From assembly GCF_024494655.1 (NCBI RefSeq), contig NZ_JANHDL010000014.1, positions 1 through 64,000 on the forward strand: a DNA stretch of 64,000 nucleotides, given 5' to 3'. Origin of the DNA: Halorubrum laminariae. GTDB lineage: Archaea; Halobacteriota; Halobacteria; Halobacteriales; Haloferacaceae. The notes beneath the pieces were generated by a model. The model saw only the letters and a list, made by a program, of their open reading frames with translations, did no database searches and was not told where the DNA came from. The translations under genes and the position numbers were made by a program. Below, piece by piece: positions 20,007 to 28,406 of the stretch; positions within the stretch are counted from its first letter, which is position 1; each line of letters opens with the position of its first letter.

Positions 20007-20402
20007 ATGAGTCTGGAAGTCATCGACCGCCACAGCGACGCACTGTTCGAGTGCCTCTGGTGTCCCGTTTGCGGGCACGAGGTCTTCACCCACATCCCAT
20101 TCGAGGGCGTGTTCTGCAAGAACTGTAACACGCAGGTCGAACTCCAAGAATCCCGAGAGACACGCGGCTACGAGGAAGCCGTCCTCGCCTGCTTCGACAC
20201 CCACTCAACGTGGAACCTCCACGTCGACGAGAAGTTGCGTCGCGACCTGCCCGACGGGTCGGCGCGGGTGAAAGTCTTCGGCGCACCAGACGCCTACGAG
20301 GTCGACTGGTGGAGTCCAGAACCGGGTGAGGACTGGGAGCCGGTCGAACGAGGCGAGTTCGACGACGTCGACGAACCGGCAGAGATCTCCCACCTCGCGT
20401 AG
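20007..20402 (+). CDS. Zinc-ribbon protein, unknown function
   Basis: 131 aa. Zinc ribbon CPVCGHEVFTHIPFEGVFCKNC (C19/C22...C37/C40 approximately), then an acidic strand-rich domain (VFGAPDAYEVDWWSPEPGEDWEPVERGEF). It resembles haloarchaeal plasmid proteins I recall under DUF7567, but the label is uncertain. Leader hairpin upstream. Confidence 0.6.
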   Translation: MSLEVIDRHSDALFECLWCPVCGHEVFTHIPFEGVFCKNCNTQVELQESRETRGYEEAVLACFDTHSTWNLHVDEKLRRDLPDGSARVKVFGAPDAYEVDWWSPEPGEDWEPVERGEFDDVDEPAEISHLA

Positions 20403-20423
20403 GGGGAACGCAGTCACCGTGGC

Positions 20424-20454
20424 TGTTTGTCGCCCCCTGAGGGGTGCGGGGGCG
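20424..20454 (+). promoter_or_regulatory. Leader hairpin element, copy 6
   Basis: TGTTTGT then CGCCCCC (20431-20437), loop TGAGGGGTGC, GGGGGCG (20448-20454): 7 bp. The C-run could also pair with the proximal GGGG. 30 nt before ATG 20485. Confidence 0.75.
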
Positions 20455-20484
20455 CTTGAAACGGCGTCTACCGTCGAACAACTC

Positions 20485-20970
20485 ATGACTAGTACAGAAA
20501 CACCATGGAGAGACGAATCGCTCCTCCAGGAACTCTACTGGGAGCAGCACTTGAGCACGAACGAGATCGCCGACGAATGGGATTGTGATCAAGCGACGGT
20601 CTGGAAGTGGATGGATCGCTTCGATATCCCTCGTCGTAGTGCCTACGAGGCAGCCACGAATAGACGCCTTCATCCGGCTGTCTTTACTGACCGTGGTTAC
20701 GTAATATGCGCGTCGAACCACCGTGGAACAACCGATTCAGTTGGAATCCATCGACTAGTGATGGTCGCAGAGCATGGATTCGACGCCGTCGCCGGGAAAC
20801 ACGTACATCATCGAAATGGGATCCGGTTCGACAACCGACCAAGGAATCTCGAACTCCTAAGTCGAGGTGAACACGCCCAACGACACGGGTTTGGGACGGA
20901 CATACGACCACCATCCGAGGAACTCATCTACTCAAATCGGGAACGCGATGACCGGGGGCGATTCAAATGA
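20485..20970 (+). CDS. HTH-HNH endonuclease
   Basis: 161 aa from ATG 20485. N-terminal HTH (EQHLSTNEIADEWDCDQATVWKWMDRFDIPRRS, residues 21-52), then an HNH_3-type nuclease domain with KHVHHRNGIRFDNRPRNLELLSRGEHAQRHG (H108/H109, N121). The fold is typical of free-standing homing-type or phage HNH nucleases that nick or cut DNA. Its stop overlaps the start of 20967. Confidence 0.8.
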   Translation: MTSTETPWRDESLLQELYWEQHLSTNEIADEWDCDQATVWKWMDRFDIPRRSAYEAATNRRLHPAVFTDRGYVICASNHRGTTDSVGIHRLVMVAEHGFDAVAGKHVHHRNGIRFDNRPRNLELLSRGEHAQRHGFGTDIRPPSEELIYSNRERDDRGRFK

Positions 20971-22670: not shown

Positions 22671-22970
22671 ATGAGCGAGCGACCTGAAATCGAAATTCAA
22701 CGACAGACCGCGTTCGGTGACGATGGCCAACTCGAAGTGACTGAGACGAGCGTCGAAACCTCCCTCGAGGACTTCGGTGCCGACGTGGATCACCGCGACC
22801 GTGATTCACGGCTTGATCGACCGAAAGCGAGTGAGTTCGGCGTCGACGACCGACCCGAAGTCAAGCACTCAGAAGAAGGCGATCAGTCGAATCTCTTCGC
22901 GGATACGGCCGAGGACCAGCAGACGCTCGCCGGCGACGACGCAGCGGATCGCTGTCTCTTCGAGGAGTAA
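22671..22970 (+). CDS. Acidic unstructured protein
   Basis: 99 aa from ATG 22671, rich in Asp/Glu/Arg, with a terminal CLFEE. Probably disordered; no family known. Directly upstream of, and likely coupled to, the zinc-ribbon gene at 22973. Confidence 0.5.
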   Translation: MSERPEIEIQRQTAFGDDGQLEVTETSVETSLEDFGADVDHRDRDSRLDRPKASEFGVDDRPEVKHSEEGDQSNLFADTAEDQQTLAGDDAADRCLFEE

Positions 22971-22972
22971 TC

Positions 22973-23338
22973 ATGACACGACTCACCAATTGGACGCGAG
23001 AGAGCCGTACAACGACCCTGGCGTACCGACATACAGAGACCAACGCTCGAGCGGTACTACACCGAGCGCCGGAGTCGTACGTCCACAAATGGCGGGCCGC
23101 AATCCTCGTCGAGGGCTATCCGGTGTGGTCGCGCGGCTTCGAGACGAAGAAGGGCTCATCGCTTCGGGACGAACTCAAAAAGCGTTCCCAGCCGGAGCTC
23201 CGCTGTCCAGAGTGCCCGAACGACGAGGTCGTCGTCGGCCAGAAGAGTGCTGACGGCGCGAAGATTCAACGGTGGTTCGAGTGCCGGGAGTGTGGCTACG
23301 AGAGTCGTTCAGCAATCGTGTACGGTCCCGAACGCTAA
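22973..23338 (+). CDS. Zinc-ribbon plasmid protein
   Basis: 121 aa. A basic N-terminal domain (WRAAILVEGYPVWSRGFETKKGSSLRDELKKR) is followed by a C4 zinc ribbon: CPECPNDEVVVGQKSADGAKIQRWFECRECGYESR. Such ribbons often bind nucleic acid, but the role is unknown. The paralogue at 16567-16932 carries a nonsense codon. Confidence 0.65.
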   Translation: MTRLTNWTRESRTTTLAYRHTETNARAVLHRAPESYVHKWRAAILVEGYPVWSRGFETKKGSSLRDELKKRSQPELRCPECPNDEVVVGQKSADGAKIQRWFECRECGYESRSAIVYGPER

Positions 23339-23403
23339 TTCTCGACCGATATGAGTACAAGACGACGAACCGCTGGGATGATCTGTACTGATCGGAGCAT
23401 TCA

Positions 23404-23436
23404 ACTCCCGGTGTAAGGAATTCTTACACAGGAGTT
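23404..23436 (+). promoter_or_regulatory. Nested inverted repeats upstream of AbrB-type gene
   Basis: ACTCC/GGAGT outside and GTGTAAG (23411-23417)/CTTACAC (23423-23429) inside, ending just before ATG 23440. GGAG also serves as a possible Shine-Dalgarno site 6 nt before the start. Likely bound by the AbrB-type protein itself. Confidence 0.6.
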
Positions 23437-23439
23437 CCA

Positions 23440-23703
23440 ATGGGTACTGGTGATCCTGACGTCGCGACGGTTACCGCAAAGGGACAGATCACGATCCCGA
23501 GTCGGCTTCGCGAACAGTTCGGCCTCGAACAAGGCACGAAGTTGATGGTTGTCCCGACGGACTACGGGATCGTGCTGAAGAAACTCGAACTCCCCTCTGT
23601 CGAGGAGTTCCAGCAGCGGGTCGAGGAGCGCGCTGAGACGGTCGACCTCTCCATAGAGGAGGTCACCCAGTTGGTGCAGGATGCACGGAGCGACGACAGA
23701 TGA
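23440..23703 (+). CDS. AbrB/MazE-family DNA-binding protein
   Basis: 87 aa. SpoVT/AbrB swapped-hairpin domain at residues 8-52 (VATVTAKGQITIPSRLREQFGLEQGTKLMVVPTDYGIVLKKL), then a helical C-terminus. Usually an antitoxin or regulator; no adjacent toxin gene is visible. Confidence 0.8.
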   Translation: MGTGDPDVATVTAKGQITIPSRLREQFGLEQGTKLMVVPTDYGIVLKKLELPSVEEFQQRVEERAETVDLSIEEVTQLVQDARSDDR

Positions 23704-23780
23704 ATCCGGGCGTCCCACCCCCGGAGCCCGACTGTTATTAGTCTCTACCCACTATTAGCACAGAGAGGATCTGAAGAACA

Positions 23781-24095
23781 ATGGCTGGAACAGGCTTCAC
23801 ATCGGGCTCCGACAGCGCGATGCCGCAGATCGTGAAAACCGACGGCGTCCTTGGTGGCGACCCCCGTATTGAGGACCGCCGCATTGGGGTCTATCAGGTC
23901 TATCAGCGGTACGTGGAGGGCGACGAAACGCCCGAAGCAATCGCGAGCAGCTACGACATCTCGGTGGCCGAGGTCCACGCCGCCCTCGCCTACGCCTTCA
24001 GTAATCCCGAGGAGATGCGAGAGATTGAGGCTCGAAATCAGGCAGTCTCCGAAGAGACGGCGGCGACCCGTATCACCCCCGAGAATAGCGTCTGA
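23781..24095 (+). CDS. DUF433 (VapB-like) antitoxin-type protein
   Basis: 104 aa. DUF433 core: VLGGDPRIEDRRIGVYQVYQRYVEGDETPEAIASSYDISVAEVHAALAYAFSNPEEM. Such proteins are antitoxins usually followed by a DUF5615 PIN-like toxin, which is absent here, so this is an orphan. ATG 23781 fits a TATA-like CTATTAG near 23751; an internal ATG at 23820 would give the shorter form usual in the family. Confidence 0.75.
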   Translation: MAGTGFTSGSDSAMPQIVKTDGVLGGDPRIEDRRIGVYQVYQRYVEGDETPEAIASSYDISVAEVHAALAYAFSNPEEMREIEARNQAVSEETAATRITPENSV

Positions 24096-24198
24096 CCTTA
24101 TCGATGGAGCTGCTCGCTAACAAGAACGACAGTTAGATGCTCGCCGGAGGGGCGTCGGTTGAACGAATTCGGACGGTGCACGATCAGAAGAACGGAGA

Positions 24199-24261
24199 TT
24201 TATACTCTCTGAGCGGGTACGGAGGCATACGATGACCTTCGAGCGCCCCGTTCGTTCCTGA
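24199..24261 (+). promoter_or_regulatory. Promoter and short in-frame leader ORF before the HNH-ligase gene
   Basis: TTTATAC (24199-24205) lies about 28 nt before ATG 24232. That ATG opens a 9-codon frame (MTFERPVRS) ended by TGA at 24259, in the same frame as the large gene downstream. It is either a leader peptide or an interrupted native start. Confidence 0.5.
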
Positions 24262-24369
24262 AAACAGCGCCGATACTACACCTTGAGCACGCTGTCGGGG
24301 CTGTGGATGGAACATCTTCTCGACGAAGGTACCACCGCACAGGTACACCTCCACCACACCCCGAAATAT

Positions 24370-25446
24370 ATGACACAACCACTGGCCCGGAAAGAGTTCA
24401 GAGACCAGTGCCGAGACCGCGACGCAGGCACTTGCGTCGTTCCCTGGTGCACTAACACCGCTGACGATGTCCATCACATCATCGAACGCGCCGAATGGAG
24501 CGACGGCGGGTATTACAAGCGCAACGGCGCGAGCGTCTGCAACGCCCACCACCAGCTAGCCGAGGCGGACTACATCCCGCCGCAGGCCTTCTGGCGGTGG
24601 CTCGACCTGCAGCCGCTCACACCAGACGGCATGTCCGAGCACGCCACCAAATGGGGCAATGAACTCCAGGTTCCGTCAGAGAAAGAACTGACACGCGATC
24701 TCATCAAATACCCCTCAACCGGACACCTGCCCGATTCACCCGACCAAGAGCACCGACGAAACGACTACTCCCACCAAGAACTCCAACAGTTCGTGTGCGA
24801 CATGGAGCCGGACCTGCCCGTCGTCGTGACCGTGAAAATGGACGGGAGCAACGCGATGATCACTCGCCCGCCGGAGATCATGCCAGATCCGAGCCGACAC
24901 CGCCCAGCGCACGGTGTCGCCGCTCGCAACGGGAAACACGCGACCCACGACTCGTTCGACCTGCTGAAAAAACGGAACCGAGAACAATACGGCGGCAAGA
25001 TCCCACCCCACATCCAGATCTGCGGAGAATGGCTCTTTGCGCGGCACTCCATCCACTACGGCGATCGAGAAGACTGTGACGACCCAGAGTGCGATGACCA
25101 CGCTGATCCGGTCCGGAACTACTTCCAAGTGTTCGGCGTGTACGACAACCGCTTCGACATCTGGTTGTCGTGGCCGGAAGTCGAAGAGTGGGCCGCGAAA
25201 ATCGGGGCTGAGACCGTGCCGGTGGTAGACAAACGCGTGTTCGAATATCCGGACCAGGTCTACGAGATCTACCCAGAGGCAGACCGCCTCATTCAGAACG
25301 GACACGAAGGGATCGTGATTCGGTCGGCCCTGCCGTTCCATTACGGCCAGTTCGAATCTCGATTGGGGAAGTACGTTCGTGAGAACCACGTCACCACCGA
25401 CGAACACTGGCGTCAGCAAGCCATCGTACAGAACGTCGAACGGTAA
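24370..25446 (+). CDS. HNH endonuclease-RNA ligase fusion protein
   Basis: 358 aa from ATG 24370 (earlier in-frame starts: ATG 24307, TTG 24283). Residues 10-75 are an HNH/McrA-like domain: C22VVPWC27 and C57NAHH61 as zinc ligands, VHHIIERAEW as the catalytic His pair, and a conserved NGASVCNAHHQLAE. Residues 130-345 are a nucleotidyltransferase of the RNA ligase type: motif I KMDG (K156, adenylation), ARNGKH (about 185-190), motif III GEWLFARHS (about 219), IIIa YFQVFGVYD, motif IV EGIVIR (E313), motif V LGKYVREN (K334). All key residues are present. The pairing suggests cut-and-seal nucleic acid processing or RNA repair. Substrate unknown; DNA ligation cannot be excluded. Confidence 0.8.
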   Translation: MTQPLARKEFRDQCRDRDAGTCVVPWCTNTADDVHHIIERAEWSDGGYYKRNGASVCNAHHQLAEADYIPPQAFWRWLDLQPLTPDGMSEHATKWGNELQVPSEKELTRDLIKYPSTGHLPDSPDQEHRRNDYSHQELQQFVCDMEPDLPVVVTVKMDGSNAMITRPPEIMPDPSRHRPAHGVAARNGKHATHDSFDLLKKRNREQYGGKIPPHIQICGEWLFARHSIHYGDREDCDDPECDDHADPVRNYFQVFGVYDNRFDIWLSWPEVEEWAAKIGAETVPVVDKRVFEYPDQVYEIYPEADRLIQNGHEGIVIRSALPFHYGQFESRLGKYVRENHVTTDEHWRQQAIVQNVER

Positions 25447-25450
25447 GAGC

Positions 25451-25558
25451 GTGTCAGCTGAAGAGGCAGTCTCCGTTGTGCAGCTACTGATGGGGGAGCT
25501 GCACACGCTCGTCGGCGCACTAGCTGCCAGTCAGCGTCTCTCCGAGGCCGATAATTGA
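25451..25558 (+). CDS. Possible 35-aa small protein
   Basis: GTG 25451 starts four bases after the ligase stop codon. The frame (VQLLMGELHTLVGALAASQRL core) is one amphipathic helix. Tight spacing suggests translational coupling; no homologue known to me. Confidence 0.4.
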   Translation: MSAEEAVSVVQLLMGELHTLVGALAASQRLSEADN

Positions 25559-25580
25559 CTACCGGGTAGAGAGGGAAATG

Positions 25581-25606
25581 TTATAGTCTGAACTATAATA
25601 GTCTGA
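25581..25606 (+). promoter_or_regulatory. Inverted and direct repeats in promoter region
   Basis: TTATAGT (25581-25587), CTGA, ACTATAA (25592-25598) is a perfect inverted repeat. ATAGTCTGA occurs at 25583-25591 and again at 25598-25606. The AT-rich core may include the TATA box for the transcript covering 25705 onward. Confidence 0.6.
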
Positions 25607-25649
25607 GTTCTAACTTTGGAGCAATGCTGAGGAGCTACTAGCCGGTGGT

Positions 25650-25680
25650 GGTTTTTCGACCCCCCGAGAGGGGTGCGGGG
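25650..25680 (+). promoter_or_regulatory. Leader hairpin element, copy 9
   Basis: GGTTTTTCGACCCCCC then GAGA loop, GGGG (25670-25673), TGC, GGGG (25677-25680). The C-run can pair with either G-run. 24 nt before ATG 25705. Confidence 0.7.
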
Positions 25681-25704
25681 CATCCGAACGCCCGCGTTCA
25701 ACCG

Positions 25705-26385
25705 ATGGAGACGAACTCGACTACCGACCAACGAGCGGAGGTACAGGATGCAAGTAAGCGATACCAGACGAACACAGACCACGTCGAGTACGTCGGGATG
25801 CGCGTCGACGGAACGCCAGTGGTGCTGAACCTCACTGCACACGAACGCCTCACTCCGGATCGAAGCCTCGACCTCGTGCGACATAGCCCGGCGGGATTCG
25901 ACTGGGGCTACGTGGGGAGCGGCCCGGCGCAACTCGCCTGTGCACTCCTCCTCGATTATACCGACGATGAGAGCGTCGCCCAGCAACACTACATCCAGTT
26001 CCGGAATGAGGTGATCAGTCAGCTCGTGTGTGAGGGCCCGGCCGACTGCTGGCACCTCACCGGAGACGATATCGAAACGGCACTCGCTGAGTGTGAGGAT
26101 CACCACACACTCACGCCGGATGGTGGGAAGCCGTCGCTGCCCGCGAACTGGAGTGCCGTGAGTCGGGAAGATCGGGCGGTCTTCCAGCGGCGGGACATCG
26201 ACCACTACGTCGTCCTCGGCGACGGGAGCGAGGAGTGGTTGATCATCCTCTGCGCGCAGGGCGACCGGGCGTATCCCGCCCCGCTCGATCATCGGACCCT
26301 CCCCATCGAGAACGACCCTGCTCCCGCCGTCCAGGAACTCGTCGCTGAGAGCAACGACCTCGTCGAACCCCAGGAGGATATCTAA
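25705..26385 (+). CDS. DUF6166-family protein with C-terminal extension
   Basis: 226 aa. The N-terminal half matches the family hallmark (HSPAGFDWGYVGSGPAQLACALLLDYTDDESVAQQHYIQFRNEVISQL). Residues 140-226 form an extra domain (WSAVSREDRAVFQRRDIDHYVVLGDGSEEWLIILCAQGDRAYPAPLDH) absent from the paralogue at 20967. Its TAA overlaps the next ATG (TAATG). Confidence 0.75.
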   Translation: METNSTTDQRAEVQDASKRYQTNTDHVEYVGMRVDGTPVVLNLTAHERLTPDRSLDLVRHSPAGFDWGYVGSGPAQLACALLLDYTDDESVAQQHYIQFRNEVISQLVCEGPADCWHLTGDDIETALAECEDHHTLTPDGGKPSLPANWSAVSREDRAVFQRRDIDHYVVLGDGSEEWLIILCAQGDRAYPAPLDHRTLPIENDPAPAVQELVAESNDLVEPQEDI

Positions 26386-26540
26386 TGGAGAACGTCCGAC
26401 TCTCGCGAACTACGTACCAGCTCATCAAACGCGCTGTCGAGGCGCTGGAGCGGATCGGCCGGGAACTCGAGCGATACAACGACCGGCACGAGCGAACAGC
26501 GGAAGAAGCCACAGATGAGACGAATCCAGACGAATCATGA
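26385..26540 (+). CDS. Small helical protein between overlapping genes
   Basis: 51 aa (begins MENVRLSRTTYQLIKRAVEA, charged coiled-coil-like helix). It overlaps the upstream stop (TAATG) and the downstream start (ATGA), a strong sign of a real coupled gene. No family known. Confidence 0.65.
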   Translation: MENVRLSRTTYQLIKRAVEALERIGRELERYNDRHERTAEEATDETNPDES

Positions 26541-27073
26541 CCGGCGATGCGACGCTCGACGAGTTCGCGATCGAGACATCGTCCGGTGAGTCCCGCTCGC
26601 TCACGCTGGAAGAGCGACTCCTCACCCCGATCTCTCCGTCCATCGGTCTGCGAGTGATTCCCGGTCGCGGTGATCCGCTCTATCTCCAGAATCGGGGAAG
26701 AGAGCGGTATCTCTTCCGCGACGACCATGATCGGTGGTTCATCCTCCAACCGTCGGCGAAAGACTCGGAAGAAGCGTTCGTCCGCTGGGTGTATCTCCCA
26801 GCAGACCGGCCTGAACGGCTAGCGCAGTCGGCGCTTCGTCGACGGACGGTGATCGGATACGACTACGTCCAGCGGTCAGCCGCACCCGATCCGATCAGAT
26901 CGACGGTGACAGCAATGTTCGTCACCGAACGCTGGCCCGAGACGACCTACATGTGTGGGTCGTGCGAGGCGCTGTTCGACACGGCACGAGACCATGCTCT
27001 CCACTGCTGGGACGCCCATCCCTGGGTACCGAATCCTGAGCAGGTGCGCCGGCGACGTCACCCCGAGGGATGA
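26537..27073 (+). CDS. Protein with C2H2-like zinc finger
   Basis: 178 aa. The body is strand-rich (RVIPGRGDPLYLQNRGRERYLFRDDHDRWFIL). Near the C-terminus is CGSCEALFDTARDHALHCWDAH, a C2H2/CCHH-type zinc finger, with a basic tail QVRRRRHPEG. Probably nucleic-acid binding; no known function. Third gene of the 25705-27073 operon. Confidence 0.6.
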   Translation: MTGDATLDEFAIETSSGESRSLTLEERLLTPISPSIGLRVIPGRGDPLYLQNRGRERYLFRDDHDRWFILQPSAKDSEEAFVRWVYLPADRPERLAQSALRRRTVIGYDYVQRSAAPDPIRSTVTAMFVTERWPETTYMCGSCEALFDTARDHALHCWDAHPWVPNPEQVRRRRHPEG

Positions 27074-27112
27074 GATCAGGAGGTGAAGCCGGGTATCGAG
27101 GCCATTCAGACG

Positions 27113-27154
27113 ATTAACCAACAGCGCTGGATTCTTGGGTGAAGTGTTGGTTAA
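27113..27154. repeat. TTAACCAACA inverted repeat, copy 2
   Basis: TTAACCAACA (27114-27123) and TGTTGGTTAA (27145-27154), 21-nt loop. Nine bases before a leader hairpin. Confidence 0.85.
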
Positions 27155-27162
27155 GAGGTGGC

Positions 27163-27195
27163 TGTTTTTGCGCCCGTGAGAGGGGCGCAGGGCGC
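27163..27195 (+). promoter_or_regulatory. Leader hairpin element, copy 10, with two identical pairing partners
   Basis: TGTTTTTG then GCGCCC (27170-27175), which is complementary to both GGGCGC at 27183-27188 and GGGCGC at 27190-27195. The clearest case of a two-state structure. 42 nt before the start at 27237. Confidence 0.8.
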
Positions 27196-27236
27196 GTGAT
27201 GAGAGCGCCGTCGCGAGTGACGAAGCCGATTTCGAG

Positions 27237-28406
27237 GTGACTGCAATGAAAGACCCAGAATCCAGAACCGTGTTCGCTGGCGTCGACGGACGAACCGACA
27301 CAGAACTACCCGACTGGTACCGCCGGAAGAAAACGGTCGACGAAGCGAGGTCCTTCGCCGAAGCGGTCCGTGATCTCCCGCAGGCCGTCGAGACGACAGT
27401 GGCCTACCAGAACCCCTACTCCGACGAGTGGGTCGAAACGGAGCGCTTCAACGCCATAGTCGAGCCGACGAGAGCGCGTGACCACGCGACAGATGACGAG
27501 CCCGACGTGGATCCATTATTTCACGTCCCTACGGACAGTTACGCGATCATCAACCCTGTCGACGTGTACAGGCCCTTGGAAGAGGTCCTTCGTGAGGAGA
27601 CCATCGACGGGACGCCGCTCGGGGACGTGATGTTCGGCGAGGTTCGACGCTACCGGGGCGGCGGCGAAGTTCATATGGACGTGATGTTCGACGGCCTCGA
27701 AGTCCGGCTCCCCGGCCGGGCGGATCCGATCACGATGGGCGTGACCTCCGGCTACGACTTCTTCGGTGAACACGCCGTCTACGTCGAAGGGTTCGCTCAG
27801 GATGGCTACTGCTCGAATTCGATGCGCTCGATCACCGACAAAGAGGTCATCAAACACGTCGGGGACGTTCGAAACTTCCGGGCCTGGTGGGAGGAGATCC
27901 TCGCACAGGTCGAACTCGTTGCCGATGACCTCTTCAAGTTCATCCGGGATGCCCAGGACATCGACCTCGATTTCGCCGAGCTTCCGTTCACCGTCACGGA
28001 ATTCTACAGTCTGCTTGGGTTTCCGGACTATCTCGCAGAGCGTGCAGCTGAGGATGCCGAGGCGAACGCGGCGTCGCCATTCGAGATCGATATGTGGACA
28101 CTGCATTCCGGCGCGACGTACGCACTCACTCATTTCTTCCAGGGGAAAGAGGGAGCGTCCCTCGACCAGTACGTCCGCGTCGCGAACGACATTCTGTTCA
28201 ATCCCGAGGGCACCGTCGACCGAGCCGAACAGGGGTACGAACAGCAGCTGGACGCTGAGGACAGTGATGGGTCCCAGTCCTCGCTCGCCGGCGAGCGAGC
28301 GCTGGCGAGTATCGAACGTGTGGGTGACGACCTGCAGGCGAACGTCGAGCAATTCGAGGAGCGTGAAGACGCGCTTCGTGAACGATTCCAGCAGGTGACG
28401 AACTAG
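27237..28406 (+). CDS. DUF932-like plasmid protein
   Basis: 389 aa from GTG 27237 (ATG 27246 also possible). Architecture resembles phage/plasmid DUF932 proteins: a beta-rich half (DSYAIINPVDVYRPLEEVLRE, YRGGGEVHMDVMFDGLEVRL, GVTSGYDFFGEHAVYVEGFAQDGYCSNSMRS) and a helical half (WWEEILAQVELVADDLFKFI; LHSGATYALTHFFQGKEGASLDQYVRVANDILF), ending in a coiled coil. The family is common on plasmids; some members are thought to act in replication or DNA metabolism, but this is unproven. Confidence 0.6.
   Translation: MTAMKDPESRTVFAGVDGRTDTELPDWYRRKKTVDEARSFAEAVRDLPQAVETTVAYQNPYSDEWVETERFNAIVEPTRARDHATDDEPDVDPLFHVPTDSYAIINPVDVYRPLEEVLREETIDGTPLGDVMFGEVRRYRGGGEVHMDVMFDGLEVRLPGRADPITMGVTSGYDFFGEHAVYVEGFAQDGYCSNSMRSITDKEVIKHVGDVRNFRAWWEEILAQVELVADDLFKFIRDAQDIDLDFAELPFTVTEFYSLLGFPDYLAERAAEDAEANAASPFEIDMWTLHSGATYALTHFFQGKEGASLDQYVRVANDILFNPEGTVDRAEQGYEQQLDAEDSDGSQSSLAGERALASIERVGDDLQANVEQFEEREDALRERFQQVTN

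Follow-up and report, generated by a model that had tools for sequence, protein, structure and literature searches.

A phage-type HNH–RNA ligase fusion carried as cargo on a haloarchaeal plasmid

The window, by which we mean the whole 64,000-nucleotide stretch analysed here (positions 1 to 64,000 of Halorubrum laminariae contig NZ_JANHDL010000014.1), is part of an 88-kb contig and carries on its forward strand a gene for an HNH–RNA ligase fusion of 358 amino acids (24370–25446, stop codon included; ATG start). An in-frame TTG at 24283 offers a possible alternative start upstream; homologues begin near the ATG. Given that the whole length of the protein is kept in independent phages and plasmids, the gene is not a chance open reading frame. 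An overlapping reverse-strand frame of 256 amino acids (24736–25506) was dismissed as the kind of shadow frame that GC-rich genes usually cast. The fusion consists of an HNH (beta-beta-alpha metal) nuclease domain (24388–24567, residues 7–66) containing CVVPWC, VHHII and SVCNAHH, a linker (24568–24705, residues 67–112), and a ligase nucleotidyltransferase core (24706–25443, residues 113–358), all on the forward strand. Within the core lie motif I, K156-M-D-G (24835–24846), whose lysine is the predicted AMP acceptor; the motif III region GEWLFARHS (25024–25050; E220, H226); motif IV, EGIVIR (25306–25323; E313); and a variant of motif V, LGKYVREN (25363–25386; K334), in which valine replaces the second lysine of the usual KxK. 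An insertion in the ligase domain (25060–25113), seen only in the haloarchaeal clade, carries a conserved cysteine pair (C236, C241) and is possibly metal-binding.

Both halves were assessed by profile search and structure prediction. The ligase half matches Pfam RNA_ligase (PF09414) at 3.2e-25 over residues 150–336, covering the full profile, and PHROG 24030, "RNA ligase", matches the protein at 5.6e-84. Pfam alone made no call for the HNH half, but HNH PHROGs match residues 8–69 (best 5.5e-8, "HNH endonuclease"). A single-sequence search of the PDB returned no match, while a search with a profile of 76 relatives returned weak matches to the IscB HNH for the first half (E 0.006) and to the Naegleria RNA ligase for the second; matches to fatty-acid-binding proteins in the same search were rejected as chance. 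An AlphaFold2 model built on the alignment of the 76 relatives reached a pLDDT of 91.5 and a pTM of 0.91, and its ligase half retrieved archaeal RNA ligases, the Naegleria RNA ligase, T4 Rnl2 and other ligases by Foldseek (E-values from 2e-7). The second half accordingly falls among RNA ligases and the first among HNH domains, in agreement with the initial annotation, which had read the protein as an HNH domain fused to an RNA-ligase-type nucleotidyltransferase. Family profile and motifs I, III and IV are those of Rnl2-like RNA ligases (PF09414). The chain ends about 20 residues past motif V and does not carry the separate C-terminal domain of T4 Rnl2 proper, nor the N-terminal OB domain of the Rnl5 ligases (DraRnl/NgrRnl), its N-terminal half being the HNH. 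The layout instead agrees with the HNH-Rnl2 fusion family (Iyer et al., 2021), in which an HNH domain precedes an Rnl2-like ligase in one chain, and the window protein shares full-length common ancestry with the phage fusions of that family (99% coverage; HGTV-1, Salicola and Caulobacter proteins).

Across 109 sequences, K156, G159, R186, E220 and H226 are invariant (K156 in 109 of the 109 with a letter there), as are E313, G314 and K334 wherever present. Motif V reads K-x-V-R (K334-x-V336) rather than K-x-K in essentially all family members, so the earlier statement that the core has all ligase motifs was slightly generous, although each motif it quoted is present. In the HNH half, C22, C27, H35, H36, N52, C57, H60 and H61 make up the cysteine zinc ligands and the H-H...N...H residues of a beta-beta-alpha metal nuclease. 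Of these, C22, C27, C57 and H60 are predicted zinc ligands, whereas H35 and H61 are the putative catalytic-metal ligands and H36 the putative general base, roles that we presume from general knowledge of HNH enzymes and their fold.

Most sequences of the viral set were fetched with HNH peptides, so HNH conservation there was not taken to demonstrate activity, and the argument rests instead on the fusions fetched by tblastn. In these, the quartet H35, H36, N52 and H61 is complete in each of the six named phage fusions and in 7 of 11 plasmid fusions (window copy counted), and mean column identity is similar for the HNH (0.61) and the ligase (0.58). The zinc ligands are retained in 11 of 11 plasmid fusions (C22, C27, C57, and His or Cys at 60). 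Three Pseudomonas megaplasmid copies have lost both H35 and H61 and kept every ligase motif; as two of them are sisters in the tree and the third stands elsewhere (with weak support for its position), the loss probably happened at least twice. HNH domains without H35 and H61, retained on Pseudomonas megaplasmids together with zinc ligands and ligase motifs, are a modest new observation. Separately, the nearest plasmid homologue, on Natronococcus CG52 (L003:9986–11137), carries H36Q and has lost the motif I aspartate (D158G), and this copy may be decaying.

Given that the Pseudomonas copies lost the ligands of the catalytic metal and kept the zinc ligands and the ligase motifs, the HNH domain probably serves a non-catalytic purpose as well. 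A stronger version would reduce it to a nucleic-acid-binding module that stands in for the OB or C-terminal domain required by other RNA ligases and cuts nothing. This would suit the persistence of zinc ligands where catalytic ligands are gone and the match of the ligase half to NgrRnl, and the HNH takes the place that the OB domain has at the N-terminus of the Naegleria and Deinococcus nick-sealing ligases. With the four catalytic residues intact in every named phage member and in seven of the plasmid members, we consider it unlikely.

The HNH and the ligase could also act in sequence, the first cutting nucleic acid and the second rejoining it, as in intron removal or DNA/RNA rearrangement. 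HNH nucleases leave 5'-phosphate and 3'-OH ends, which are exactly the ends that ATP ligases use. The two domains are similarly conserved, the whole-chain model is confident (pTM 0.91), and a role in tRNA intron removal has been proposed for the ligases of HGTV-1 (PMC8651126), all of which would fit such coupling. Yet the three plasmid copies without HNH metal ligands keep every ligase motif, standalone ligases without an HNH occur in the same family, and the end-healing neighbours of relatives described below imply ends made by other nucleases; we therefore regard coupled cutting and sealing as quite unlikely. Improbable, too, is its most specific form, in which the enzyme cuts and seals one substrate (removing an inserted RNA stretch, for example) and was disseminated by giant phages and picked up by megaplasmids of archaea and bacteria.

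The genomic setting is that of a plasmid. The 20–31 kb stretch of the window matches 112 haloarchaeal plasmids, mostly at 80–86% DNA identity, and the fusion gene lies outside this matched backbone. Identification of the contig as a virus was rejected on the grounds that the backbone matches more than 100 haloarchaeal plasmids. The gene belongs to a variable cargo segment (22964–25574) that is absent from Haloplanus rallus pMBLA003601 and from Salarchaeum japonicum plasmids, which pass directly from window position 22963 to 25575; a Natronomonas gomsonensis plasmid lacks approximately 23342–25650. The segment also holds a MazE/AbrB-type antitoxin-like gene (23440–23703, forward strand; PF04014 9.5e-9) and a DUF433 antitoxin-like gene (23781–24095, forward strand; PF04255 7.7e-12), bearing out the earlier description of a plasmid setting with antitoxin-type genes nearby. 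Since this segment of 2.3–2.6 kb is missing from otherwise collinear haloarchaeal plasmids, we regard the three genes as replaceable cargo. Between the antitoxin-like genes (23440–24095) and the ligase gene there is no recognisable toxin partner. Immediately downstream, from the DUF6166 gene onward (25645–28406, forward strand), the conserved haloarchaeal plasmid backbone is about 86% identical in DNA to other plasmids. A search for direct or inverted repeats on either side of the cargo segment, such as a mobile element would leave, found none; nor was there an Rfam RNA near the fusion gene, or an end-healing or other RNA-repair gene beside it within the window. No polynucleotide-kinase partner could be singled out elsewhere in the genome; matches to the P-loop kinase family AAA_33 occurred in all 14 control genomes.

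The surrounding backbone has further features. A second, separate HNH nuclease gene (20401–20970, forward strand) combines HTH_23 and HNH_3 and matches PHROG 7545 at 2.7e-42. The conserved backbone gene at 27237–28406 (forward strand) has no Pfam match, matches PHROG 13083 at 6e-144 and also has hits in haloarchaeal tailed viruses. In other plasmids of the same backbone, a restriction endonuclease (L133:1349–2713, L135:2006–3370) or a DUF262 protein (L136:5190–6890) is encoded near the cargo slot. The region therefore collects conflict-related genes, which suggests that it is a hotspot for them.

HNH–ligase fusions were reportedly first described by Burroughs and Aravind in 2016, and we know of no assay of the family as a fusion. 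By tblastn, 26 phage records were found (16 at ≥80% of length), with Halogranum virus HGTV-1 first (45%), followed by Caulobacter, Salicola and Acinetobacter phages. Plasmids gave 51 records (11 at ≥80% of length), with Natronococcus CG52 first (39%) and further homologues on Bosea, Variovorax, Pseudomonas, Miltoncostaea, Erythrobacter and Rhizobium megaplasmids. Two scans of viral contigs added 121 and 26 confirmed relatives, and about one third of the 80 viral contigs listed in the larger scan are at least 200 kb long. No relatives turned up when the genome collection was scanned directly. Among 293 genomes of the order Halobacteriales, the fusion occurs only in the window genome, and a class-wide haloarchaeal sample gave full-length matches in 2 of 391 genomes (the window genome and G332, the latter copy apparently that of the Natronococcus plasmid, judging by its place on the contig). 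The haloarchaeal copies form one clade (support 100/99) and have in common the cysteine-pair insertion and a linker some 20–30 residues shorter than in bacterial and phage members. The initial annotation had called such a fusion uncommon, and this holds for haloarchaea; the architecture itself was already known from a 2021 survey of jumbo phages, which noted an N-terminal HNH on some Rnl2-family ligases (PMC7824862), and is present on more than 100 viral contigs. The window gene is a new archaeal plasmid member of this known phage fusion family, a rare copy and not a new system.

Further indications of function come from the neighbours of relatives, which are individual cases drawn from some 80 loci and not a measured enrichment. 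In a 462-kb phage (L020), the gene directly downstream of the fusion is of the HD-Pnk type (HD domain plus P-loop kinase), an HD-Pnk homologue overlaps the start of the fusion from upstream on the Pseudomonas FeN3W megaplasmid (L015), and a HAD-PNKP kinase-phosphatase is encoded near a third relative (L103); these three loci have the adjacent end-healing gene expected of an RNA-repair operon. HD-Pnk homologues also follow the Deinococcus standalone ligases. Other relatives neighbour KptA/Tpt1 (L088), RlaP (L086), Thg1 (L082), cREC (L043) or NADAR (L073), and an Rnl1-type ligase lies beside a standalone copy (L129). On the Bosea pANAM02 megaplasmid, a cas9 gene (L007:7749–10985) adjoins the HNH–ligase gene. 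Because relatives adjoin HD-Pnk, PNKP, KptA, RlaP, Thg1 and cREC genes, RNA repair is favoured over the other two functions first entertained, anti-defence and DNA processing, and is the most likely role of the ligase.

The alternative that the protein is a plasmid DNA-repair or DNA-processing ligase draws on Deinococcus radiodurans, where the operon of the standalone ligase DRB0100 is radiation-induced and was initially taken as DNA repair (PMC1997131); our Deinococcus match (L010) corresponds to DRB0100 by its plasmid and its operon context of macro-like and HD-kinase genes. DRB0100 self-adenylates at K40, the motif I lysine, but sealed none of the DNA or RNA substrates tried (PMC1997131). 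With no DNA ligation by this homologue, RNA ligases coming first in both sequence and fold matches, and RNA-specific phage neighbours such as KptA and Thg1, we find a DNA ligase very doubtful.

We favour, with a probability of roughly 60%, a phage-type HNH-Rnl2 ligase resident on a plasmid, with an RNA-sealing core and an HNH that is an active nuclease in most members as well as a binding scaffold, carried as cargo for surviving conflict. The C-terminal half would place AMP from ATP on K156 and pass it to a 5'-phosphate end, which would then be joined to a 3'-OH. The RNA resealed in this way would probably be a tRNA or other structured RNA, and the RNase that nicked it would belong to a host defence, to a rival element or to a toxin. 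At the N-terminus, the HNH would be a metal-dependent nuclease, most likely directed against the DNA of a competing element, and its zinc-held scaffold may double as an extra nucleic-acid-binding module for the ligase. As accessory cargo, the gene might help the plasmid or its host to survive such conflict. From domains, motifs, relatives and genomic setting we infer the ligation, nuclease activity, substrate and benefit proposed here. The intact ligase core and HNH residues, the RNA-repair neighbours of relatives, the setting in HGTV-1, the self-adenylation of DRB0100 and the absence of the gene from collinear plasmids speak for this reading as a whole; the missing RNA-repair neighbour of the window copy, the failure of DRB0100 to seal and the motif V without a second lysine speak against it. 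As to the HNH, it could be either a separate weapon that cuts DNA or a binding module; true cutting and sealing is less likely, since there are copies that have lost the HNH active site and retain the ligase.

These results bring haloarchaeal plasmids into the range of an RNA-repair fusion known from jumbo phages. The window protein provides a halophilic version of the fusion for assay, and the natural variants that lost catalytic HNH ligands and kept scaffold and ligase offer a way to probe the purpose of the HNH.

Among known systems, HGTV-1 gp233 (annotated "HNH protein" or RNA ligase) is closest, sharing with the window protein the full-length two-domain layout at 45% identity, the cysteine-pair insertion and the clade (100/99). 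In contrast to the window gene, it belongs to a lytic virus whose genome holds 36 tRNAs together with tRNA-processing genes, including a CCA-adding enzyme and RtcB (PMC8651126). The jumbo-phage HNH-Rnl2 fusions (Caulobacter CcrBL9, Salicola SCTP-2, Acinetobacter ME3) likewise have an N-terminal HNH, an Rnl2-like ligase and the catalytic motifs, but are only 28–32% identical, have a longer linker, do not carry the cysteine-pair insertion and are often found among other RNA-repair genes. The DRB0100-type standalone ligase belongs to the same ligase family and has the same K-x-V-R motif V, whereas it has no HNH and is in an operon with HD-Pnk and macro-like genes. The Naegleria gruberi RNA ligase (5COT) and T4 Rnl2 (2HVR) share the covalent nucleotidyltransferase fold and motifs I, III and IV at only about 14–17% identity, the former with an OB domain and the latter with a C-terminal domain instead of an HNH.
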